Assembly (NCBI GenBank): GCA_937936035.1
Contig: CALGXJ010000085.1
Coordinates: 1 to 40,867, forward strand
Source of the DNA: Eximiradius proteiniborus
GTDB taxonomy: Bacteria > Bacteroidota > Ignavibacteria > Kapaibacteriales > UBA2268
Length of the DNA: 40,867 bases
Direction of reading: 5' to 3'
Positions within the stretch are counted from its first letter, which is position 1. The number at the start of each line of letters is the position of its first letter. Made by a program: the position numbers and the translations under genes. Below, piece after piece: positions 3,537-31,671 of the stretch. The notes below the pieces were generated by a model, which was not told the DNA's origin, searched no databases, and saw only the letters and a list, made by a program, of their open reading frames with translations.

Positions 3537-3759
3537 AAGCAAACAAAAAGTCAAGGACGCACTTTTCCGCTCCATAAGAGAGATGGCTCCGCTTATGAAT
3601 TTAGGGATGCAGATGGCAATTCCAGTTGTATTATTTACATTGCTTGGATGGTGGATAGATAAAAAATATAGCTCTTCTCCTCTTTTTATATTATTGTTTG
3701 CAGCAATTGGAGTATTTGCTGCATTTTATTATTTTTTCAAAGCAATTAAGAGAAAATGA
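3526..3759 (+). CDS. AtpI/AtpZ-like small membrane protein (putative F0F1-ATPase-associated subunit)
   Basis: 77 aa, two TM helices, GMQMAIPVVLFTLLGWWIDKKYSSSPLFILLFAAIGVFAAFYYFFKAIK resembles ATPase gene 1 proteins. Confidence 0.7.
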   Translation: MASKSKQKVKDALFRSIREMAPLMNLGMQMAIPVVLFTLLGWWIDKKYSSSPLFILLFAAIGVFAAFYYFFKAIKRK

Positions 3760-4340
3760 GTGAAGGATATATCAAATACAATACAATTTGCATAGGGAAC
3801 GAATATCCCGATGCAATTAATATAGTTGATTTGCAAGTATTGAGAAATGAATTAAAAATAAAAAACTTAATCGGAATGCTTCCGGGTGGGATTGGGTATG
3901 GCAACGTAAGCAAGAAATGGAACGATAAGTTCATCGTTAGCGGCTCGCAAACTGGTGGCGAAGCAATTCTCAGTTGTAGTGATTATTCAATTATTCACGA
4001 TTACGATATTTTGCAGAATACATTAGTTTATAGTGGGTTAAGACAACCTTCGTCTGAAACTATTACTCACATAGCAATTTATGAAGCACAACCTAATACA
4101 AAGTTTGTTGCTCACCTGCATAATAAAAGAATTTGGGAAAAATTAATCAAAGATGGAGCTAAAACTAATGGCGTTTCTGAGTATGGCACAGTGGGAATTG
4201 CGCTTGAAGCAAAAGATTATGTTTCAGGTTTTCCTTACGACGAAGGAATTTTTGCATTAAGTGGGCACGAAGATGGTGTAATTGCTTTTTCGAATGAACT
4301 TAAATCAATTATTGTTCTGATTAATAAACATATTAAGTAG
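3756..4340 (+). CDS. Class II aldolase/adducin-family protein
   Basis: GIGYGNVSKKWNDKFIVSGSQTGG, metal-ligand-like VAHLHNKRIW and LSGHEDGVIAF; about 190 aa; ATGA overlap with upstream CDS. Confidence 0.8.
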   Translation: MSEGYIKYNTICIGNEYPDAINIVDLQVLRNELKIKNLIGMLPGGIGYGNVSKKWNDKFIVSGSQTGGEAILSCSDYSIIHDYDILQNTLVYSGLRQPSSETITHIAIYEAQPNTKFVAHLHNKRIWEKLIKDGAKTNGVSEYGTVGIALEAKDYVSGFPYDEGIFALSGHEDGVIAFSNELKSIIVLINKHIK

Positions 4341-6416
4341 TTTCTGCACATCAATTATCATTACTGGCTTGTTGTTGTAAACTGACGATGCAGCAATAAA
4401 TGGAGTATCACTGAGAAGTTTGTTAGGTGGCGAAGGCACAAGTTCCGCTTCCCCGATAAATTTATCGAAAATCAAAGCGAAATTGCTATTAACGTCGTTT
4501 ACCAACAGAACAGGTTTATTCTTTGCAATATATTCGGCTTCAATATTTAAGACTTTTCGAATGTCAATAGAGTTGGTGTTTGGGAACTGCTCGCGAAAAG
4601 TCTTTTCGTCTATAAGAGCCTCGCAATTTAGAATTTGGACTGCATAGAGATTGCCATCGACATCAAAAACGAGAGATTTCAGCAAAACATAGTTCATATT
4701 GAATGAAATAGTAAGTTTGGTGCCGGAATCTGGTTTAGAACTAATATCAATTCTACCGTTGTTATTGCTAATCAAATTGATAAGCCCTTCCAAGCGACTC
4801 GCGATAGTAGTTGCATTTTCACCTTTGCCATCATCAACAATTTCAATAAAGAGCTTACCGCCCAAAGTGCGGGCAGAAATAGAAATCTCAGCCATTTCCG
4901 ACTTCTTTTTCCGCAAATTGGGAGGTTCGATGTTGTTCAAAATAATATCGCGAAGCAACTGCGGAAGCAATATTTCAAGCAAAGTATGCAATTCAGCACC
5001 AACTCGAACAAATCGACCTGCAATTTTAAGGCTTACTTTCTTGTTTGAATAATTTGCCAAATCATTTGCAAGCTCATTGTAGCCACGGACTATATCACCA
5101 AAAGCAATTGAACGGAAATTGTAAAGACCGTTATAAATAGTATTAATTCTGTTTTTTATGTTTTGCAGATGTTCATCAGCCGAAGAAGAGAATAGATCTA
5201 ATTGAGAAATAAGATCATCAAGTTTCTTTGAATTGTTTATTGCAATTTCAGTAAGCGTTTCGGTATTTGTGATATTATACAAGATGTTATTATTATCGAG
5301 TAGTATCTGTCGGATAAGCGATTTCAAAGATTTCAGGTTTCCGATAGAATTGGCCATTGGAGCTAGGTTGGAAATAATACCGACAGTAGCATCGAGCAAT
5401 CTGTTATACTTAGAATAATCATTGAATTGAGAAGATTTGTAACCAAAATAATAGAGTTTATCGTCCGAAGCAATTTCAGTTGTATCACTACCAGAGATTA
5501 CAATCGGAAGAATTTCGTCACTTGATAACTTAGCCGAAGGCGTTGGTTGCAATTGTTCCTGGTCTGTCAGAAATGAACGCAGAAAATCAGAATAGGTATC
5601 GATATAGTCGCTATAGTCTTTGATTTTGTCGATGATTGCGATGGCACTTGTAGCCGCAATTTCTTTGAACAATCGATTACAGCTCAATAATAAATCCATC
5701 TGATACGGATTAATTGGAAGATTATGATCGGCAAGGAAACGAATGAAGTCGCTCAATGCATCAGCAAGGTCGAATGCTTTGGAAACTCCAGCACTTATTG
5801 CTGCTCCCTTGATTGCATTCAATGCTTGCGAAATTGGGACCACATCTATTGTTGCATTTTGCGTTTCAGACTGCTCCAGTACGTGTTCGATTGTACTGAC
5901 AGAACGCACTATCGCATACTTGAATTTCTCGAGCAATATTCCTTTGCTTTGCTGCTCGTTGGAAGATGTTTTGGATTTGGCTCTGGTTGGCTGCACTTTT
6001 TTTATTCTATGAGGTGCAGCAATCGATTGCAATTCGCTCGTAATCTCATTGATAATTGCAAATTCGGAATTAAGCAATTCCAGAATTTCAAACGAGGAAA
6101 ACTGAATGATTGAATAATAGAAATCGTTTGCACGCAAGACAACATCGATATCGTTCGGAAACAAATCTAACCGTTTTTCTTTTGCAAGAGATACAATTTT
6201 GAGCATTGCATCAGCAATAAGAACAGCATTATCAACAGACAATTTCTTTGCCGACAGTCTGATTTGATTGATTGAATTAGCCGCATTTGCTAAAAGTTCC
6301 GATATTTGATATTTTTCGTAATCAAGCAAACAGGTTTCTATAATATCGCAATGGTGACGGCATGTTTCCCTGAAATATTCAATATGTTGCTCAATATTAC
6401 TCAAATTCAAGTTCAT
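4305..6416 (-). CDS. CheA-like chemosensory protein, probable pseudokinase: two Hpt-like regions, P3/HATPase-like region, CheW-like domain
   Basis: Hpt-like ALNAIKGAAISAGV (canonical FHTIKGAA), P3-to-P4 segment FRSIAFGDIVRGYNELANDLANYSNKKVSLKIAG, HATPase VDDGKG, C-terminal CheW-like regulatory fold ending FIAASSVYNNKPVMIIDVQKLLN. Follows MCP-like and CheW-like genes. Confidence 0.8.
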   Translation of the reverse strand: MNLNLSNIEQHIEYFRETCRHHCDIIETCLLDYEKYQISELLANAANSINQIRLSAKKLSVDNAVLIADAMLKIVSLAKEKRLDLFPNDIDVVLRANDFYYSIIQFSSFEILELLNSEFAIINEITSELQSIAAPHRIKKVQPTRAKSKTSSNEQQSKGILLEKFKYAIVRSVSTIEHVLEQSETQNATIDVVPISQALNAIKGAAISAGVSKAFDLADALSDFIRFLADHNLPINPYQMDLLLSCNRLFKEIAATSAIAIIDKIKDYSDYIDTYSDFLRSFLTDQEQLQPTPSAKLSSDEILPIVISGSDTTEIASDDKLYYFGYKSSQFNDYSKYNRLLDATVGIISNLAPMANSIGNLKSLKSLIRQILLDNNNILYNITNTETLTEIAINNSKKLDDLISQLDLFSSSADEHLQNIKNRINTIYNGLYNFRSIAFGDIVRGYNELANDLANYSNKKVSLKIAGRFVRVGAELHTLLEILLPQLLRDIILNNIEPPNLRKKKSEMAEISISARTLGGKLFIEIVDDGKGENATTIASRLEGLINLISNNNGRIDISSKPDSGTKLTISFNMNYVLLKSLVFDVDGNLYAVQILNCEALIDEKTFREQFPNTNSIDIRKVLNIEAEYIAKNKPVLLVNDVNSNFALIFDKFIGEAELVPSPPNKLLSDTPFIAASSVYNNKPVMIIDVQKLLNMFINQNNN

Positions 6417-6915
6417 TCATTAATTCAAATATCATTTCAATGTTTAGAAAATAATAATCTCTTTGCTGAATTTTAATCTTGCTATACAACGAACTATCTG
6501 TAGCTGAAAACGTATTATGATCGAGCGGGAAACGCACAAAATCAACTTCTATACCAAATCGGGATGTCCCGTCATTAAAAATAAGAGTGCAAAATGGTTG
6601 GGTGCTTGCTTGAAAATCACCCAATTGCTTTAAATCAACTATCGGCAAGATAGTCCCTTCGTAGGCAATAAGTCCGGAAATCCATTTGGGGAAATTTTGG
6701 TTGGTGTATTTTTCTCTGTTCGGGATTGCTATCTCAATAAACTTGCTATTAGCAACAAAGTTTATGTTTCCTATTTTGAAAGGCAATAAAGATACTTTTG
6801 TGTTTAAATTGGTTAAATGCGTCTCTTCAATAATATGATTTGAAGATAGTTTATACTTGAAAAAATCATTATCAGTAAATCTACGTTTATAATATTTAAT
6901 TTTACGGACAGCCAC
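6397..6915 (-). CDS. CheW-like coupling protein
   Basis: FPKWISGLIAYEGTILPIVDLKQLG matches the CheW core (IRGVINLRGxIIPVIDL); GTG start overlapping the upstream stop by 1 nt; 20-nt overlap with the CheA-like gene. Confidence 0.75.
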   Translation of the reverse strand: MAVRKIKYYKRRFTDNDFFKYKLSSNHIIEETHLTNLNTKVSLLPFKIGNINFVANSKFIEIAIPNREKYTNQNFPKWISGLIAYEGTILPIVDLKQLGDFQASTQPFCTLIFNDGTSRFGIEVDFVRFPLDHNTFSATDSSLYSKIKIQQRDYYFLNIEMIFELMNELEFE

Positions 6916-8903
6916 TATATTTTCTCAGAAACATCAATTAAATCTTCAATAATACCATCAAGTTTTGATAAATCGCTTCTAGCGTTTTCAGTATTTTTGA
7001 GAATAGTGCGAAAATCATCTACCACAGAATCGAACTTATTGGAAATATAAGCAAGACGCTCGTTGAATTTGGAGTATTCAAGCAACATTTTGGCTAAATC
7101 AGATTGGGTTGGGGTATTTTCCAGAACAATTTCAATAGTTTCAAGGTCGTTGCTACAAGCATAAATTGCGTTGCGTGCTTCGGTAGCAAGATAATAGATC
7201 TGATCCAGCGAATTAAGAAGATTTTCGGAAATTTTCTTAATTTCGTTCGATAATAATTCCATTTTGTTTGAACTTACTTTTTCAGCAAAAATTGAAGAAT
7301 TAACAGCAACAAGGTAAGTATGGTCTGATATTTTCTTTAGATTGTTTAATTCTGTGAATAATTTATCAAGTTTGTCGGAAAGAAGTTTGGCTTTGCTCTG
7401 AATAGTAATTGCTTTTTGTTTGACTTTTTCTCTTGCCGAATTATTGTCGAATTTAGAAGCAATATCGGCTGGGGTCTCCCATCGGGCAAGTTCGTTGGCG
7501 GTGGTAGCAAGTTGAGTGATTTTAACAGTCAGGCTGGTAATGTATTCTATCGAGGTATCGAAGGCAAGCGAGGCATTTGTCTTCAGTTGTCCAATTTTAT
7601 CGGCAACGTCAAGCAGGCGATTAATTTTAATTTCAATAAAATCCTGCAAATCAGATTTATCTTGTTGCAAATCGTAAATAGTTTTATTAATTCTATTTAG
7701 CGACTTAATAAGCTCATCGTTTGTGATTTGACCTTTGAATGATTTCTCGATAATCTCGTTTTCAAATTCACGGCTTTTGCCTGTGGCAACGTAGTCAAGG
7801 AATTTGATTAGTTCCCGCTCTTTTTCTTTCAATTTGAGAGCAAAATTGTCCGATGCTCTCACAGAATAAAAAACAAGCAACGCAATCACAAGAATTGCAA
7901 CAGCGAGAACCATTTTCAGACCATTTGCCCGTAATCCGGACGGCATAATTTTGGGCTGCTGCGGGAACTCTGACAAAATCAGCAAGTTCAATTTGCCTGA
8001 ATATACGGCTGAACGTCCCCAGTCATAGCTGCAAGTCTGAAAATCAATGTTACTAAGTTGCAAGCTATCAGCCCAGGCTAATGTGCTTTTGCGAGGCGAA
8101 TCCCCAAACGAAAGAAGAACATTTTTTGTGAATGCATCATAATAAGTGATATTGTAATTTATCTTGGAAATGTTGAAATCGATAAAGCCTGAAAGTTTGT
8201 TGAGAATGCCCATCATACCAAGAATTTTGCCTTGACGGTTGATTATCCGGCGGAATGTAACGGAATAAATATTATCGTTAATATTTTGCAAGATAGTGAA
8301 GCTCTGACCTTTGAATATTTTTTCGATAAGTAGAGCAGCTGAACGATTTTTTTTCGGACTAATCAAATTCAGATTGAAATTATCAGGGAGATTGTAGAAA
8401 GTGTGGTTTACAAGGAACATATCGCCGTCTTCGCTTATTCGTTGAAAGATAAGAAAATCTTTACCGGAAACAGATTTCAATGATTGGAGGAAAGGATGTA
8501 TTCTGTTTTTTTCGTTTCTGCTAAGATTAATATTGCCAAAGTACATAGATGGAATACTTTCGTAATACATTTTATCAAATGGAATATCTGGAACAAGTCG
8601 CCATCCGGCGCCTAATTTTAAATTTTCGTCTATTGCATAAGCAGTTTTTTCGAAATTGACAGAAACATTTTGTTCTATATATTTGCAAAGCAATTCAGCT
8701 GTTTTGTCGATTTGTTTCGATACTGCTGTCTGCTCAGAACTTTGATTGTCCGGTAAATTGCTCGAAAGGGCATAAATCCCGATTGCAACAATAATCCCGA
8801 AAAGAAATACGCCCAAAAAATTTGCTTTAAAAAGCGTTCGCAGAAAGTATTTTTTTTCGTCGAAATTCAATTTAATTTCGCTCCCTATATTATCAACAAA
8901 CAA
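6915..8903 (-). CDS. Divergent methyl-accepting chemotaxis-like receptor
   Basis: TM1 (NFLGVFLFGIIVAIGIYALSS), about 270-aa extracytoplasmic region, TM2 (MVLAVAILVIALLVFYSVRA), long coiled coil with MCP-tip-like ISDHTYLVAVNSSI...NEIKKISEN. Start codon (TTG at 8903) uncertain. Confidence 0.75.
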   Translation of the reverse strand: MFVDNIGSEIKLNFDEKKYFLRTLFKANFLGVFLFGIIVAIGIYALSSNLPDNQSSEQTAVSKQIDKTAELLCKYIEQNVSVNFEKTAYAIDENLKLGAGWRLVPDIPFDKMYYESIPSMYFGNINLSRNEKNRIHPFLQSLKSVSGKDFLIFQRISEDGDMFLVNHTFYNLPDNFNLNLISPKKNRSAALLIEKIFKGQSFTILQNINDNIYSVTFRRIINRQGKILGMMGILNKLSGFIDFNISKINYNITYYDAFTKNVLLSFGDSPRKSTLAWADSLQLSNIDFQTCSYDWGRSAVYSGKLNLLILSEFPQQPKIMPSGLRANGLKMVLAVAILVIALLVFYSVRASDNFALKLKEKERELIKFLDYVATGKSREFENEIIEKSFKGQITNDELIKSLNRINKTIYDLQQDKSDLQDFIEIKINRLLDVADKIGQLKTNASLAFDTSIEYITSLTVKITQLATTANELARWETPADIASKFDNNSAREKVKQKAITIQSKAKLLSDKLDKLFTELNNLKKISDHTYLVAVNSSIFAEKVSSNKMELLSNEIKKISENLLNSLDQIYYLATEARNAIYACSNDLETIEIVLENTPTQSDLAKMLLEYSKFNERLAYISNKFDSVVDDFRTILKNTENARSDLSKLDGIIEDLIDVSEKI

Positions 8904-9060: not shown

Positions 9061-12000
9061 ATGCAATTAGCAGCAGGAATTTGCATAGGTGCTTCAAGCG
9101 TTAAATTAGCAATTATCAGCCGAACAAGTTCGGATGGTTTTGCTCTTCAAAGTTGGGAAGTACAACCGCACAATGGAACTCCACAGGAAATAATCAAAGA
9201 CTTTTACCAAAAGTATAATCTAAACAAAATTCCGGCTGCCTTCACTGGCAGAAAGTTCAGGTCAATTATCAAAGCAAAAAATATTTCAGAACCCGAAGCA
9301 ACAGAATTAGCTTATAGCAAAGTATATGGTGCAGGCAGATTCGATGCAATTGCGTCGCTTGGCAGCGAAACTTTCCTTGTTTACACTCTCGACCGTTACG
9401 GTAAAATATCGGGTGTCATTACAAAAAACCAGTGTGCTTCCGGTACTGGTGAATTTTTCCTGCAACAAATAAAGCGAATGAACCTTTCGCTCGACGAGAT
9501 TAATGAAATTACTGAAGAGGCCAAACCTTTCAGAGTATCTGGACGTTGTTCGGTCTTCTGCAAGTCTGATTGCACTCACGCACTAAACAAAGGTGTGCCA
9601 AAGGCGGAGGTTGCCGCAGGCCTTTCGCAAATGATAGCAGAAAAAGCTCAGGAATTGTTCGAAAAGCAAAAAATAGAACGAGTGTTGCTGCTGGGTGGAG
9701 TTACACGCAATAGTGCTGTAATGAAATTTTTGCAGGCTAAATATCCAAACGCAGAAGTATCAGAGTATTCAGATGTTTTCGAAGCTTTGGGTGCTGCCCT
9801 ATATGCTTCCGAAAACGAACTCGAACCAATTGCTGATTGCGAGCAAATTTTCAAGCACAAAGAAAGCTCGTTTGCGTTTCTGGCACCACTCCAAAAGTAT
9901 GCAGATAAAGTTCTATTCGAGCAAATTGCTGTTCGCAAAGCAATGGATGGAGAGCGTTGTATCATAGGGCTGGATGTAGGTTCTACCACCACAAAAGCTG
10001 TTGCAATAAGTGCCGAAAATAAGCAAGTTCTTGCAAAATCTTATCTTTATACATACGGCAATCCAATTGAAGCTGCCAAAAATTGCTACCGCGAGCTTCG
10101 GCAACAGCTGCCTGATAAAATTGAAATTATCGGAATTGGGACAACCGGCTCTGGACGTCATATTGCCGCTTTGCACGCAGAAACCGAATCTGTAATTAAC
10201 GAGATAACTGCACACTCCACAGCTGCCGTTCATTTCGACAAAGATGTGGACACAATTTTCGAAATTGGCGGTCAAGATGCAAAATACACCTACATTGTAA
10301 ATCGTGTTCCTGCAGACTATGCTATGAACGAAGCATGTTCGGCAGGCACCGGGTCGTTTCTGGAAGAAGCTGCAAACGAGAGTTTAAAAGTAGCTCTGCA
10401 CGAGATAGAGCAGCTTGCAATGAAAGCAGACAACCCACCAAATTTTAGCGACCAATGCGCCGCTTTCATCGGTTCAGACATCAAAACTGCTCAGCAAGAG
10501 GGAATTTCACGCGAAAATATTGTAGCAGGGCTTGTTTATTCCGTTTGTATGAATTACGCAAATCGTGTGAAAGGAAATCGTCCAGTTGGAAACAAGATTT
10601 TTATGCAAGGTGGTGTTTGCTATAATCGCGCCGTGCCAATTGCTATGGCAGCTATCACAGGCAAAGAAATTATTGTACCACCAGAACCAGGTCTGATGGG
10701 AGCTTACGGAGTTGCTCTCGACGTCCTGAATAAAATAAATCTTGGCATCTGCACAGAAAAAAAATTCGACCTCGACGTTCTAATCAATCGTGAAGTAATA
10801 TACAAAAAGCCATTCATTTGCCGCGGCGGAAAAGAAAAATGCGATCTTAAATGCTCAATAAACATGATACAAATCGAGGATCGCACCTATCCATTTGGCG
10901 GTGCTTGCGATAAATATTACTCAATCAACCTTAAACGCGATACAAACATTAGCAGATACGATTATGTTTCTTTGCGAAATCATTTGTTTTTCGAAAAGTA
11001 TGCGCCAGCGAGCGATTTGCCATCGGATGCAAAAACAATTGGAATTAACAATTCGTTTTTGACGCATTCGCTTTATCCTCTGTTTTACAACTTTTTCACT
11101 CAGTTAGGCTTTCGGGTTGTAATTCCTGAAAATCCCGATAAAAAAGGGTTCGAGCGGGAAATTTCATCCTTCTGCTTTCCTGCACAGCTTTCGCTTGGTT
11201 TGATGGAAGAACTGTTAAATCTCAAGCCCGACTATGTTTTCCTTCCAGCTGTTTTCGAAATAAATGCAGGAGACCGAAAGCCGCAGAGACTTGATTTCAA
11301 CTGTACCTGCGTATTTGTAAGTGGCGAGGCGTTTTATTTGCGGCAGGCTTTCAAAGATAGATTGCAAAATATTCCACTTCTGACTGAAAACTTCAATTTT
11401 GCTAACGGATTTGAAAGAGAATTCGATAAATTTTTCAATATTGCTGTAAAAATTGGGATTCCGGGCAAGGAAAAAGTTCGTTCAGCTCTCGAATACGCAA
11501 TAGAAATGCAGCAGCGATGTCAGCAGGAAGCGTTTGAATTCGGGCGCAAAGCTCTAAAAGAAATAGATCAATCACCTGACAAATTCGGAGTTGTGCTTGT
11601 TGGCCGCCATTACAATGCATTGCCGGATTTTGCAAATAAAGGAATACCGCAGAAATATGCATCACGCGGGATTTACGTACTGCCGTTCGATTTGTTTGAC
11701 TGCTCCGAAGAAACAATCGACGACAATATGTTCTGGGAAGCAGGCAAAAGAATCTTGCGAGTTGGCAAATTCATCAAAAAACATAAACAACTATTTGCAA
11801 CTTATATCACTAATTTTTCTTGTGGTCCCGATTCGATGATTATAAGTTCGTTTCGGAACATAATGAAGGACAAGCCATCGCTAACACTCGAATTAGACAG
11901 CCATTCAGCCGACGCCGGTATCAACACGCGTATAGATGCTTCCATTGATATTATCAACAACTATTTGAGAATAAATAAAAGTTTACAGCCCAGGCAAGTC

Positions 12001-13407
12001 AATTTAGCACGAATTGAATTTGCCGAACCAGTGGCACGTTTTGTCAGGTCTTCGGGTGAAATTGTGCCGCTGAACGATCCAAGCGTGGAAATACTCATAC
12101 CGTCGATGGGCGAGCTTTCGGCAAAATTCTTTGCTGCTGCTCTGCGATCGTTAGGTTTCCGTGCAAAAGCATTGGAAGTGCCAACACCTGAAGTATTGAA
12201 ACTTGGCAGGGCAAATTGCACAGGCAAAGAGTGTTTGCCGCTAATCATAATGGTTGGTTTGCTAATAGACTATATCGAAAACCACTGGGACCATCGCACA
12301 AATCTTGCCTATTTCACTGTGCAAGGAGCAGGCAACTGCCGGCTTGGGCAATATCCGGTGTTCATACGTCAGTTGCTTGAACGGCGCGGCATCGAGAATG
12401 TAGCTCAGATGGTGTTGATGAACGAAGATGGTTTTGCCGGACTTGGCGAAAATTTTGCACTACGGGGAATTCAGGCAATTTTGGCGGCTGATGTTATCGA
12501 GGACATTAGAAATGCAATTCTGGCTAATGCAGAAAACCCCGACAGAGGAATTGAAATTTTTGAGAACGAGTTCGATAATCTAATTCATCATTTTGAACAG
12601 AACCCAGAGCAGATTTACAGTCATCTGGAAAATTTCGCTTATGCCTTGAAGAGCAAAATTCCAGCAAGAATACCTATTGAAAAATCCAGTTATATTGCGT
12701 TTGTCGGGGAAATATACGTCAGACGCGACCATTTTGCTCACAAGTGGTTGAACGAGTATTTCGCGAAACGTGGATTTGTTTTGCTTCCTGCCCATATTTC
12801 CGAATGGATATTTTACGTTGATTATCTGCTGCAAATAGATTTGCTCGAAAGCGAGAAATCGCTCCGCAAGAAGTTTGAGCGTCAAATACGTAATTTCTTT
12901 ATGCGCGACGCGGAAAGAAAAATCAAGAAAGCCCTCGAAAAAAGCGGCTACTATAAGTTTCATCGCACCGAAATCGAACCGATTTTGAAGCACAGCCGGC
13001 ATCTGCTGCCATACGAATTCAAAGGTGAACCCGGTTTAACTCTCGGCATTGCTCTCAAAGACGGACTGGGGAAATACTGTGGTATCATTAATTTCGGACC
13101 ATTCACCTGTATGCCCACCCGGTTTACTGAAGCAGTAGGATTACCTGAAATGAACATCAAAGGAAAATTGCGGGCAAAAACAGAATGCAATCAGGATGTT
13201 TCATTTACAGATACCTTTGATGGAATTGAGAATATACCATTTTTGACAATAGAAACAGACGGAAATGTGTATTCGCAAATAATCGAGGCACGGCTCGAAA
13301 CATTTGCACTTGCCGCAGAGAGAGTTGCCCAGGCACGCGAGCGTCGCACAAACGGAGTCCAGAATTTAAGTTTCCGGCAACGAGTTAGCAAATTTTTCGG
13401 TGATTAG
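9061..13407 (+). CDS. Giant fused acyl-CoA dehydratase activase (BcrAD/BadFG-type ATPase x2) plus 2-hydroxyacyl-CoA dehydratase-like region
   Basis: Two ASKHA modules (GICIGASSVKLAII...NQCASGTGEFF and IGLDVGSTTTKAVAIS...EACSAGTGSFLEEAA), Cys-rich linker CRGGKEKCDLKCSINMIQ...FGGACDKY, HgdB-like C-terminal half. Confidence 0.88.
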   Translation: MQLAAGICIGASSVKLAIISRTSSDGFALQSWEVQPHNGTPQEIIKDFYQKYNLNKIPAAFTGRKFRSIIKAKNISEPEATELAYSKVYGAGRFDAIASLGSETFLVYTLDRYGKISGVITKNQCASGTGEFFLQQIKRMNLSLDEINEITEEAKPFRVSGRCSVFCKSDCTHALNKGVPKAEVAAGLSQMIAEKAQELFEKQKIERVLLLGGVTRNSAVMKFLQAKYPNAEVSEYSDVFEALGAALYASENELEPIADCEQIFKHKESSFAFLAPLQKYADKVLFEQIAVRKAMDGERCIIGLDVGSTTTKAVAISAENKQVLAKSYLYTYGNPIEAAKNCYRELRQQLPDKIEIIGIGTTGSGRHIAALHAETESVINEITAHSTAAVHFDKDVDTIFEIGGQDAKYTYIVNRVPADYAMNEACSAGTGSFLEEAANESLKVALHEIEQLAMKADNPPNFSDQCAAFIGSDIKTAQQEGISRENIVAGLVYSVCMNYANRVKGNRPVGNKIFMQGGVCYNRAVPIAMAAITGKEIIVPPEPGLMGAYGVALDVLNKINLGICTEKKFDLDVLINREVIYKKPFICRGGKEKCDLKCSINMIQIEDRTYPFGGACDKYYSINLKRDTNISRYDYVSLRNHLFFEKYAPASDLPSDAKTIGINNSFLTHSLYPLFYNFFTQLGFRVVIPENPDKKGFEREISSFCFPAQLSLGLMEELLNLKPDYVFLPAVFEINAGDRKPQRLDFNCTCVFVSGEAFYLRQAFKDRLQNIPLLTENFNFANGFEREFDKFFNIAVKIGIPGKEKVRSALEYAIEMQQRCQQEAFEFGRKALKEIDQSPDKFGVVLVGRHYNALPDFANKGIPQKYASRGIYVLPFDLFDCSEETIDDNMFWEAGKRILRVGKFIKKHKQLFATYITNFSCGPDSMIISSFRNIMKDKPSLTLELDSHSADAGINTRIDASIDIINNYLRINKSLQPRQVNLARIEFAEPVARFVRSSGEIVPLNDPSVEILIPSMGELSAKFFAAALRSLGFRAKALEVPTPEVLKLGRANCTGKECLPLIIMVGLLIDYIENHWDHRTNLAYFTVQGAGNCRLGQYPVFIRQLLERRGIENVAQMVLMNEDGFAGLGENFALRGIQAILAADVIEDIRNAILANAENPDRGIEIFENEFDNLIHHFEQNPEQIYSHLENFAYALKSKIPARIPIEKSSYIAFVGEIYVRRDHFAHKWLNEYFAKRGFVLLPAHISEWIFYVDYLLQIDLLESEKSLRKKFERQIRNFFMRDAERKIKKALEKSGYYKFHRTEIEPILKHSRHLLPYEFKGEPGLTLGIALKDGLGKYCGIINFGPFTCMPTRFTEAVGLPEMNIKGKLRAKTECNQDVSFTDTFDGIENIPFLTIETDGNVYSQIIEARLETFALAAERVAQARERRTNGVQNLSFRQRVSKFFGD

Positions 13408-28411: not shown

Positions 28412-29471
28412 TAATTATCCCGACAAAATAAAGACAATCTATAAATTCACTATTACCTCCGGGCAGAAGCCAGAGCGCGTAGATGTGTTTTTGACCCGGG
28501 CAATTGCAGGAGCAACCCGCAACCGTGTGCAGAAAGCCATCGATGCAGAGTGCGTCCGTATCAACGGCAATCCAGTTAAAGCAAGTCGGAAAATTCAACC
28601 GGGTGACGAAGTTGAATGCGTTATAATGAAACTTCCGCCAATTGAACTAATTCCAGAGCCAATTAAGATTGAAATCGTATATGAAGACGAACACCTTGTA
28701 GTGGTAAATAAGCAACGTGGGCTGGTTGTTCATCCATCGATCGGGCACAGGAGCGGTACTCTTATCAATGCTTTGCTATATCATTTGGGGATGCGAGAAG
28801 CAATTAAGCTGGAACTCGAAGACGAGGACGAAGAATCTGACAACGACGACGACGAGCAAATTTTTGCGAGCGACGCTGTTCGCCCGGGATTAGTCCATAG
28901 AATAGACAAAGACACTTCCGGGCTGCTTGTCGTCGCCAAAAATGCTACTATCCACGCAGAACTTTCCCGGCAATTTGCCGAAAAAACAACCGAACGCGAA
29001 TATCAGGCAATAATCTGGGGCAATCCAAAGCAAGAGAAAGGAACAATAGTAGGCAATATAGGACGTTCGCTCAAAAATCGGAAGATTTTCACTATTCTTC
29101 CAAAAGGTGGAAAATACGCAAAAACTGATTACGAAGTGCTTGAAAATTTTAAATACGTATCGCTTGCACGGTTTGTACTGCACACGGGACGCACACACCA
29201 AATACGCGTTCATTCTCACTATATCGGGCATCCCATTTTCGGGGACCCAACCTATGGCGGGGCGTCTGTTTTATTTGGAGGAGAGAACCCAAAATTTCGT
29301 TCCAGAGCGGAAAAATGCCTGCAAATTGCAAACGAGCGTCAGATATTGCACGCGAAAACGCTAGGGTTTTACCACCCAGCGTTGAAGCAATTTATGCGTT
29401 TCGATAGTGAGCTCCCGGAGGACTTCCGGCAAATTCTGGAATTATTCAGGGAAGTCAGTTTTGATTATTGA
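28398..29471 (+). CDS. RluA/RluD-family 23S rRNA pseudouridine synthase
   Basis: S4-like N-terminus (RVDVFLTRAIAGATRNRVQKAIDAECVRINGNPVKASRKIQPGDEV); PGLVHRIDKDTSGLLVVAKN; HTGRTHQIRVHSHYIGHPIFGDPTYGG. Start moved to the ATG at 28398. Confidence 0.94.
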   Translation: MQANNNYPDKIKTIYKFTITSGQKPERVDVFLTRAIAGATRNRVQKAIDAECVRINGNPVKASRKIQPGDEVECVIMKLPPIELIPEPIKIEIVYEDEHLVVVNKQRGLVVHPSIGHRSGTLINALLYHLGMREAIKLELEDEDEESDNDDDEQIFASDAVRPGLVHRIDKDTSGLLVVAKNATIHAELSRQFAEKTTEREYQAIIWGNPKQEKGTIVGNIGRSLKNRKIFTILPKGGKYAKTDYEVLENFKYVSLARFVLHTGRTHQIRVHSHYIGHPIFGDPTYGGASVLFGGENPKFRSRAEKCLQIANERQILHAKTLGFYHPALKQFMRFDSELPEDFRQILELFREVSFDY

Positions 29472-30658
29472 TCAGGACAGTTTGGGAATTTAATTGTAAA
29501 TTTACTTCCTTCGCCAAGTTTGCTCTCAGCAAAAATTTCGCCATTCATTTTTTCAACAAATTCTTTGCAGATAACAAGTCCGAGCCCTGTTCCAACTTCC
29601 TTATTTGTTCCAAGCTTAGAATGAGTTTTATCTAATTTAAATAGGTTATCTAAAGTATCATCATCCATACCAACTCCGTTGTCCTCTACGGTAATATATG
29701 AGAAATCATCATCTACACGGCAACTGACAGAGATTTTACCACCATAGTTTGTGAATTTAACAGCATTGGAAAGGAGATTTCGAAGAATCGTTGATAGCAG
29801 ATTATTATCGCAGCAAACAGATACGTTGCAATCTTCGGAGAGACTGAGTGTGATTTTTTTCATTGTTATTTGAGAGGATACATCGCTTGCAGATAATTTA
29901 ATAATATCCGACAAATTATGTTTATCAATATTTACCGAAAATTTATTTAACTGCGAACGAGACCACGTGAGCAGATTTTCGAGCAACTTATACGTGTGCG
30001 AAGATGACTGCTCAATTTCATTAATAATATCAATAATATCTTCTTTGCTGAATTGCTCAATATTATCTTTAAGAATTTTAACAAGTTTATATTGTGCAGA
30101 GATTGGATTTATTAAATCGTGAGCAATAATGGAAAAGAATTTGTCTTTTGTAGAGTTTAACTGCTCTAATTTTTTTGTATATTCTTTCAGTTTTTCTTCG
30201 GCTTCGATACGACGATTTAATTCATCAATAGATTGGTTTTTAATAATTCTATATTGCTTAACTTTGTTGAACAAAGTAGCAACATTTTCTATTGCAATAA
30301 TGACATTATAAGATCCAGTTTCATTAGTTGGGATTGACAAAAGAGTAACAGTTTGAGCCTGGTAGTTGCCCTCGTTGTCTTTTATTGGGATGAAATATTC
30401 ATTAAGCATTGGTGAAAGCACCATCGGCGGGCGTCCGGAAAACATCAACTGCAATCTTGACTTATATTTAGGGGTTTTCAAATGTGGGAATAATTCAAAA
30501 ATATTTTTAAAAATAACATCTTCACGATGAATATTTGTCCAGGCTTCGAGAGTTCTATTCCAGAAAATAATATTGAAATTACTATTGATTATGCAAATAC
30601 CGATTGGGATATGGTCGTAAGCGATGAAAGGATTTTCGTAATAAATATCTTTGAGCAT
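29465..30658 (-). CDS. PAS-domain sensor histidine kinase
   Basis: PAS-like IPIGICIINSNFNIIFWNRTLEAW; H-box KDKFFSIIAHDLINPI; N-box LLSNAVKFT; G boxes VEDNGVGMD and GTGLGLVICKEFVEKMNG. Confidence 0.93.
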   Translation of the reverse strand: MLKDIYYENPFIAYDHIPIGICIINSNFNIIFWNRTLEAWTNIHREDVIFKNIFELFPHLKTPKYKSRLQLMFSGRPPMVLSPMLNEYFIPIKDNEGNYQAQTVTLLSIPTNETGSYNVIIAIENVATLFNKVKQYRIIKNQSIDELNRRIEAEEKLKEYTKKLEQLNSTKDKFFSIIAHDLINPISAQYKLVKILKDNIEQFSKEDIIDIINEIEQSSSHTYKLLENLLTWSRSQLNKFSVNIDKHNLSDIIKLSASDVSSQITMKKITLSLSEDCNVSVCCDNNLLSTILRNLLSNAVKFTNYGGKISVSCRVDDDFSYITVEDNGVGMDDDTLDNLFKLDKTHSKLGTNKEVGTGLGLVICKEFVEKMNGEIFAESKLGEGSKFTIKFPNCPDQ

Positions 30659-30676
30659 AGTATCACAGAATAATGT

Positions 30677-31291
30677 TTAACTGATTTTATTAATATATTG
30701 GTCAATAATACTTACGAAGTATTGGAAGGAATGAATATTGAAGAAGAGAATAATGTCACCAGATATTTCTAGCTCTTTGATTACAAATATTGCTTTTCCG
30801 AGAAGAACAACTTCATCAACAAATTTTAGCCGTTGTTCGAAAAATTCTTTTTTGTAGTTTTCAAAAAATACAGGCACATAGAATTCGAACTCGTGCTCAA
30901 GAGAATTACTGAAAGTAGCAAGAATAGTATTGAGAATAATATTTCCGATCTCTACCAGAGCACCAGCCTTGATTTCATCAAATTCATACGAATCGAGCAC
31001 CTGACGCGAGAATACATCTACTAATTTATTCGCACTCTCTTGCGAAAATACAAGCTGCGAAATACCAGAAAAACTATTGTGAAATTCCATATTTACAGCT
31101 GAATAATCTTCCTTTCCTAAATCTTGCAATTCTTCGATAAGTCGGTCGGAAGAAATTATTCTGATTTTTGGAATAGAGAGCTCAATCTCGACATTTAGAA
31201 TATCGCTAAGAATATTGGTGCTTTCATTTACTCCGATATTAAGAAGTTCAAGAATGGCTTCCTGTTGAATCAGCGTAAGATCATAGTTCAT
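30677..31291 (-). CDS. CheC-like phosphatase (CheC/CheX/FliY superfamily)
   Basis: Two E-x-x-N motifs, ELLNIGVNEST and EIGNIILNTILATFSNSL, in the CheC arrangement; adjacent to a CheY. Confidence 0.85.
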   Translation of the reverse strand: MNYDLTLIQQEAILELLNIGVNESTNILSDILNVEIELSIPKIRIISSDRLIEELQDLGKEDYSAVNMEFHNSFSGISQLVFSQESANKLVDVFSRQVLDSYEFDEIKAGALVEIGNIILNTILATFSNSLEHEFEFYVPVFFENYKKEFFEQRLKFVDEVVLLGKAIFVIKELEISGDIILFFNIHSFQYFVSIIDQYINKIS

Positions 31292-31293
31292 AG

Positions 31294-31671
31294 CTAACCT
31301 CCACAGGACGAAAATGCTTTTTCGATAGCGTCGAACAATTCCTGTTCTGCCACTTGTTTTTTCAAAACGGCTACAACACCAAGCTCATAGAATTTGTCTA
31401 AAATAGATTTCTGTTGATTTGCAGAAATAACTATAATAGGAGTGTTAATGCCCATTTCGCGTAAAATTTTGATTGTGGTAATTCCATTGATGCCCGGCAT
31501 AAGATAATCGACAAGAATGCAGTCAAATTGCTCATTTTTTAGTAAACTGACAGCTTCTGTCCCACTACTTACTTCTTTGACTGAAGTGAATTTTTTTGAT
31601 AGAATTTTTCGAATTGCCATCCGGGCAACTATGGAATCATCAACTATCAATATTTTTTTGTTGTTCTCCAT
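31294..31671 (-). CDS. CheY-like single-domain response regulator
   Basis: ILIVDDSIVARMAIRKIL, CILVDYLMPGINGI, IIVISANQ, VLKKQ: acidic pair, phospho-Asp, Ser/Thr and Lys all present. Confidence 0.94.
   Translation of the reverse strand: MENNKKILIVDDSIVARMAIRKILSKKFTSVKEVSSGTEAVSLLKNEQFDCILVDYLMPGINGITTIKILREMGINTPIIVISANQQKSILDKFYELGVVAVLKKQVAEQELFDAIEKAFSSCGG

Follow-up and report, generated by a model that had tools for sequence, protein, structure and literature searches.

Three overlapping genes lie on the reverse strand of the window, i.e. the whole stretch of 40,867 nucleotides that was analysed: a dCache-type receptor, a CheW-like protein and a CheA homologue, here called pseudo-CheA, follow each other in this order and form a translationally coupled operon (the trio; Table 1). 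The pseudo-CheA open reading frame (4305-6416, minus strand) is unbroken and can code for a 703 amino acid protein. The cheW-like gene ends with GAA TTT GAG TAA and is overlapped there by a TTG codon at 6404 (TTGAGTAA); since the orthologues from the same genus begin at that residue, TTG 6404 is probably the start of pseudo-CheA, which would then be 699 amino acids long.

Table 1. Genes of the trio and domains of pseudo-CheA (positions in the window; residue numbers refer to pseudo-CheA)
Feature	Position	Strand	Remarks
Receptor-like protein	6915..8903	-	TM1, Cache_3-Cache_2-like periplasmic domain, TM2, long coiled coil, degenerate MCP hairpin tip ISDHTYLVAVNSSIFAEKVSS
CheW-like adaptor, 172 aa	6397..6915	-	GTG start overlaps the receptor stop codon
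Pseudo-CheA	4305..6404	-	ORF reaches 6416; likely start TTG 6404
Pseudo-Hpt1	6021..6395	-	residues 8-132; Asn50 at the phospho-His position; H+4 Gly and E67-equivalent lost
Pseudo-Hpt2	5556..5951	-	residues 156-287; Asn200 at the phospho-His position; IKGAA kept; most constrained domain
P3 dimerisation hairpin, extended	5112..5417	-	residues 334-435; two helices of 47 and 51 residues
Pseudo-kinase P4	4695..5111	-	residues 436-574; N-box QLLRDIILNN; G1 Asp kept (VDDGKG); lid, F box and G2 box deleted
P5 CheW-like domain	4317..4694	-	residues 575-700

Homology of the third protein to CheA, as claimed in the original prediction, is secure. In Pfam the CheW-like domain scored above its cut-off, with HATPase_c and Hpt remaining sub-threshold; the CheA of Thermotoga maritima was matched by phmmer among PDB chains (E = 2e-12). 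The AlphaFold model (mean pLDDT 74.5) consists of two helical bundles, a long P3 hairpin, P4 and P5, and was found by Foldseek to resemble PDB structures of CheA (TM 0.74 for P4; E = 1.6e-18 for P3-P5). The P3-P4-P5 architecture of CheA is thus present. The CheW-like adaptor contains a Pfam CheW domain (25.1 bits, cut-off 23.5) and aligns with CheWs (hhalign E = 2e-8). The receptor-like protein matches Cache_3-Cache_2 in Pfam and has no match there to MCPsignal or HAMP; residues that are usually conserved in MCPs have changed at its tip, and its AlphaFold model is of low confidence (pLDDT 48).

Five full-length orthologues of pseudo-CheA were found among 54 genomes of the family: three from the same genus (92, 83 and 81% identity), one from a second genus (G023, 48%) and one from a third (G034, 29%), after which the next matches drop to about 24%. 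Together with the protein of the window's genome, which is 78% complete, they make up the six orthologues referred to below; the orthologue genomes with named records are all metagenome assemblies (Ignavibacteria/Candidatus Kapaibacterium). The synteny of the trio is kept in all four members of the genus. The G023 locus has the receptor and pseudo-CheA genes without a CheW-like gene between them, and that of G034, at a contig edge, has the CheW-like and pseudo-CheA genes.

It had been proposed that Asn replaces the phospho-accepting His in two Hpt-like regions. Both motifs (QALNAIKGAAISAGV and ANAANSINQIRLSAKKL) are found in the pseudo-CheA reading frame, and alignment with intact relatives places N50 and N200 exactly in the phospho-His columns, which bears this out. 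Column-by-column alignment showed that the phospho-accepting His is absent at the Hpt1 and Hpt2 sites from 6/6 orthologues: both columns hold Asn in five (the four genus members and G023), and G034 has Gln at the first and Lys at the second. A recent mutation confined to one genome was therefore ruled out. Nor does any other His in residues 1-300 occur in all six orthologues, so that no conserved alternative acceptor was found in that region. The alignment of pseudo-Hpt1 with Hpt1 of the intact relatives is gap-free around the site (hhalign E = 5.6e-12); this domain also lacks the Gly at H+4 (the Gly following a conserved Lys/Arg) and the Glu equivalent to E67. For pseudo-Hpt2, residues 178-244 gave a weak Pfam Hpt match that stayed under the cut-off (E = 0.0078).

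The kinase domain is affected as well. In GHKL kinases Mg2+ is coordinated by the N-box Asn and the lid closes over ATP. The N-box HLIRNAIDHG of the relatives reads QLLRDIILNN in pseudo-CheA, and its first His, Asp and Gly are lost in all six orthologues; the Asn is lost in five, being replaced by Asp in the genus and by Tyr in G023, and retained only in G034. P4 lacks a stretch of about 44 residues that carries the ATP lid, F box and G2 box: the lid and F box are missing in 6/6 orthologues and the G2 box in 5/6, G034 retaining a short G-I-G remnant of it. G1 still has its Asp-Gly core, and since the Asp is found in all six, some nucleotide binding by P4, e.g. as a structural switch, is possible; the same may hold for G034 in particular, because of its N-box Asn and G-I-G remnant. 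The original prediction that the protein would not autophosphorylate in cis gains support, since the P4 active site has been lost besides both His residues; judged from the sequences, phosphotransfer within pseudo-CheA does not seem plausible. That the kinase site is lost, that the receptor is degenerate and that the three genes of the trio have a common origin (see below) had not been part of that prediction.

When the search was extended with profiles to the order (123 genomes), the class (391) and the phylum (396), no further degenerate CheA was found; for class and phylum, scoring covered the two top candidates of each genome. The other matches checked in these searches retain a phospho-His, G1 and G2.

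The closest architecture was found within the family, in a Wsp-like operon (L051-L057) which, according to Pfam, contains two MCPs, CheW, CheR-TPR, CheW, CheA-REC, CheB and a REC-SpoIIE phosphatase. Its CheA-REC shares with pseudo-CheA two Hpt domains (the second is absent in g24), an extended P3, P4 and P5, and the operon shares with the trio a dCache MCP and CheW. The extended P3 is missing from the cell's own CheA1 and CheA2, as judged by alignment. The trio receptor aligns with the dCache MCP of this operon over Cache, TM and hairpin (hhalign E = 3.7e-10), and its hairpin alone with a second MCP family (profile-profile E = 1.3e-4); two of the three trio proteins are homologous to members of one operon type. 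The relatives differ in that they keep the Hpt1 His and the P4 kinase motifs, including N-box and G2 box, as well as REC, CheR, CheB and REC-SpoIIE, all of which the trio lacks. The full Wsp-like (ACF-type) operon is absent from the trio locus, where only receptor, CheW-like protein and pseudo-CheA remain, and no CheR or CheB (as judged by size and BLAST only) was found in the trio operon at the orthologue loci. In the tree, pseudo-CheA sits on a long branch beside a grade of CheA-REC proteins. As the branches are long, derivation from CheA-REC draws mainly on the shared architecture (two Hpts and extended P3) and on the dCache MCP; the simplest history appears to be reduction of a Wsp-like operon to its non-enzymatic core.

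Two observations concern the intact operons themselves. In G028 and G029, CheA-REC is otherwise intact but has Asn at the second Hpt His (L054:8310-11054 and L055:8840-11602), which the sister G027 retains; this may represent an intermediate step. The operon at L056:6878-18224 encodes a response regulator with a SpoIIE-type phosphatase domain, which suggests chemosensory input to partner-switching in Kapabacteria.

Selection on the trio was assessed from within-genus pairs with finite dS. Pseudo-CheA had dN/dS ratios of 0.065-0.123, while the CheW-like gene gave 0.06-0.18 and the receptor-like gene 0.11-0.16; values of 0.06-0.18 exclude decay within the genus. Inside pseudo-CheA the ratio is lowest for pseudo-Hpt2 (about 0.03) and reaches 0.4 in the linkers. 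In the comparison of the window with G023, pseudo-Hpt2 is the best conserved domain, with 62% against 52% for Hpt1, 51% for P4, 43% for P3 and 39% for P5. Canonical and intact relatives show the reverse order, P4 being the most conserved domain (64-77%) and Hpt2 the least (24-43%). In the comparison with the very divergent G034, pseudo-Hpt2 is not the top-conserved domain. Selection thus seems to have shifted away from the kinase and onto the pseudo-Hpts. This inverted constraint is the best clue to function and points to binding by pseudo-Hpt2 as what is selected; a binding role of the pseudo-Hpts is therefore favoured over a merely structural array.

The window's genome also encodes two canonical CheAs (contigs C136 and C188), and the genus has in addition several CheWs, a CheV-sized CheW-domain protein and FliG; the cells thus also carry a flagellum. 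It is therefore likely that other proteins of the cell handle ordinary chemotaxis, with the trio as an additional unit. A stand-alone Hpt of 103 amino acids with an intact HTLKG is present too (contig C191; L060:14629-14940). The idea that the system uses another Hpt is nevertheless disfavoured, because charging it would need a working kinase, which pseudo-CheA does not have.

With the phospho-acceptor sites and the kinase active site both gone, the trio of these uncultured Kapabacteria probably signals by protein binding, in contrast to all familiar chemosensory systems, which use phosphate transfer. We lean, by a little more than an even chance, towards a conserved pseudo-chemosensory unit that would be receptor-gated and free of phosphotransfer, its pseudo-Hpts binding a partner; signalling without phosphotransfer was among the options of the original prediction and stays live. 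As to mechanism, we would give about equal weight to both sides of the proposal that phosphotransfer has been replaced by a chain of conformational changes, running from a ligand signal through receptor, CheW and pseudo-CheA, with the pseudo-Hpts as a regulated binding output. The three proteins would assemble like ordinary chemosensory complexes in which no phosphate is passed. Ligand binding in the Cache domain would alter the receptor hairpin, the change would spread to P5/CheW and P3-P4, and the availability of the pseudo-Hpts to their partner would be altered. A receiver domain would be the likeliest partner, in a response regulator that receives its phosphate from one of the canonical CheAs; this regulator could then be sequestered or dephosphorylated under control of the receptor, as with AHP6 or CheA3 (see below), known analogues that make the mechanism plausible.

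Alternatively, the trio could be purely structural, a receptor array or scaffold (e.g. for positioning proteins or at the cell pole) without any signal output from the pseudo-Hpts. The catalytic features are indeed all gone and the domains that serve assembly (P3, P5 and CheW) have been preserved, and the structural or allosteric array of the original prediction stays live as a broad notion. Its strictly structural form fits poorly, since the pseudo-Hpts are the most constrained part: P3 and P5 fall below both of them in the G023 comparison, and purifying selection also acts on the receptor gene, which encodes a periplasmic Cache-type domain. We regard this form as unlikely. Pseudo-CheA or the receptor might instead act as a dominant-negative or diluting subunit in arrays of CheA1/CheA2; in its favour, several CheW genes exist in the genus alongside the two canonical CheAs, and the P5 and CheW-like folds are preserved. 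However, the extended P3 hairpin, common to the Wsp-like relatives, does not occur in CheA1/CheA2, so that mixed dimers are unlikely, and the receptor tip has strongly diverged from standard MCPs; such modulation seems quite improbable. A split system, in which another kinase phosphorylates the trio at a non-standard residue (another His or a Ser/Thr), has a precedent in Rhodobacter sphaeroides, where CheA4 phosphorylates CheA3 in trans (PMC6829392), and H22 in the first helix is conserved in 5/6 orthologues. But H22 does not coincide with the phospho-site, is replaced by Glu in G034 and occurs in some intact relatives, and no additional P3-P4-P5 kinase gene lies beside the trio, which leaves this explanation with a low probability. 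That the trio is a decaying remnant of a Wsp-like system heading for loss is scarcely credible in spite of the lost enzymatic parts and adaptation enzymes and the long tree branch, given a pseudo-CheA frame unbroken in six genomes from three genera, the preserved gene overlaps and the low dN/dS of the trio, above all of pseudo-Hpt2.

For the receptor-gated, phosphotransfer-free unit that we favour, the nearest precedent is the TlpC/CheA3 pair of R. sphaeroides, in which CheA3, paired with an atypical receptor, dephosphorylates CheY6 (PMC6829392). CheA3 likewise has a degenerate P4, from which helices and Mg/ATP residues are missing, and Hpt domains without His, and TlpC, in the role of the trio receptor, lacks the Gly turn and the adaptation sites (PMC10782961, PMC6829392). 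CheA3 differs in keeping a His in its first Hpt and in being served by CheA4 from the same operon, whereas in the trio no Hpt His remains and there is no adjacent partner kinase. Arabidopsis AHP6 is a pseudo-Hpt that retains the fold without the phospho-His and works as a competitor in plant phosphorelays (PMC6963811); it is stand-alone and eukaryotic, whereas the pseudo-Hpts of the trio are part of a receptor-coupled CheA. ChpA of Pseudomonas aeruginosa is a multi-Hpt CheA in which some Hpts lack the His, but several are intact, six having the His (PMC10782961). In a 2023 genome survey, P1, P3, P4 and P5 were found in all CheA homologues and considered the minimal functional unit, Hpts without His were reported only alongside intact ones, and the single dead P4 belonged to a protein that retains its His (PMC10782961). 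A CheA in which both functions are lost was not found in the open-access literature, which is weak evidence; CheA3 and the Hpts of ChpA come nearest.

A selected lineage that keeps every core-domain fold without either half of the phosphotransfer chemistry amounts to a natural separation-of-function mutant. The trio would allow testing whether complexes of receptor, CheW and CheA signal, or serve otherwise, by conformation alone, and it widens the concept of the pseudo-enzyme, here a pseudo-Hpt together with a pseudo-kinase, to an entire chemosensory unit.

The surroundings of the trio were also inspected. A class II aldolase-like open reading frame (3756-4340) is convergent with pseudo-CheA and overlaps its end; in g1 and g15 it adjoins the gene convergently, and in G023 it has the same location. 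It was considered as a linked output and rejected: homologues occur in 20 of the 54 family genomes, mostly without the trio, so that it is probably unrelated. An open reading frame of 1448 amino acids (9061-13407), by eye resembling a fusion of a BadF/HgdC-type activator and a dehydratase, was not seen at the G023 locus and adjoins the trio throughout the genus. Elsewhere in the window (29465-31671), a PAS histidine kinase, a CheX-like protein and a stand-alone receiver are encoded side by side, the receiver (31294-31671) being a candidate partner of the pseudo-Hpts.
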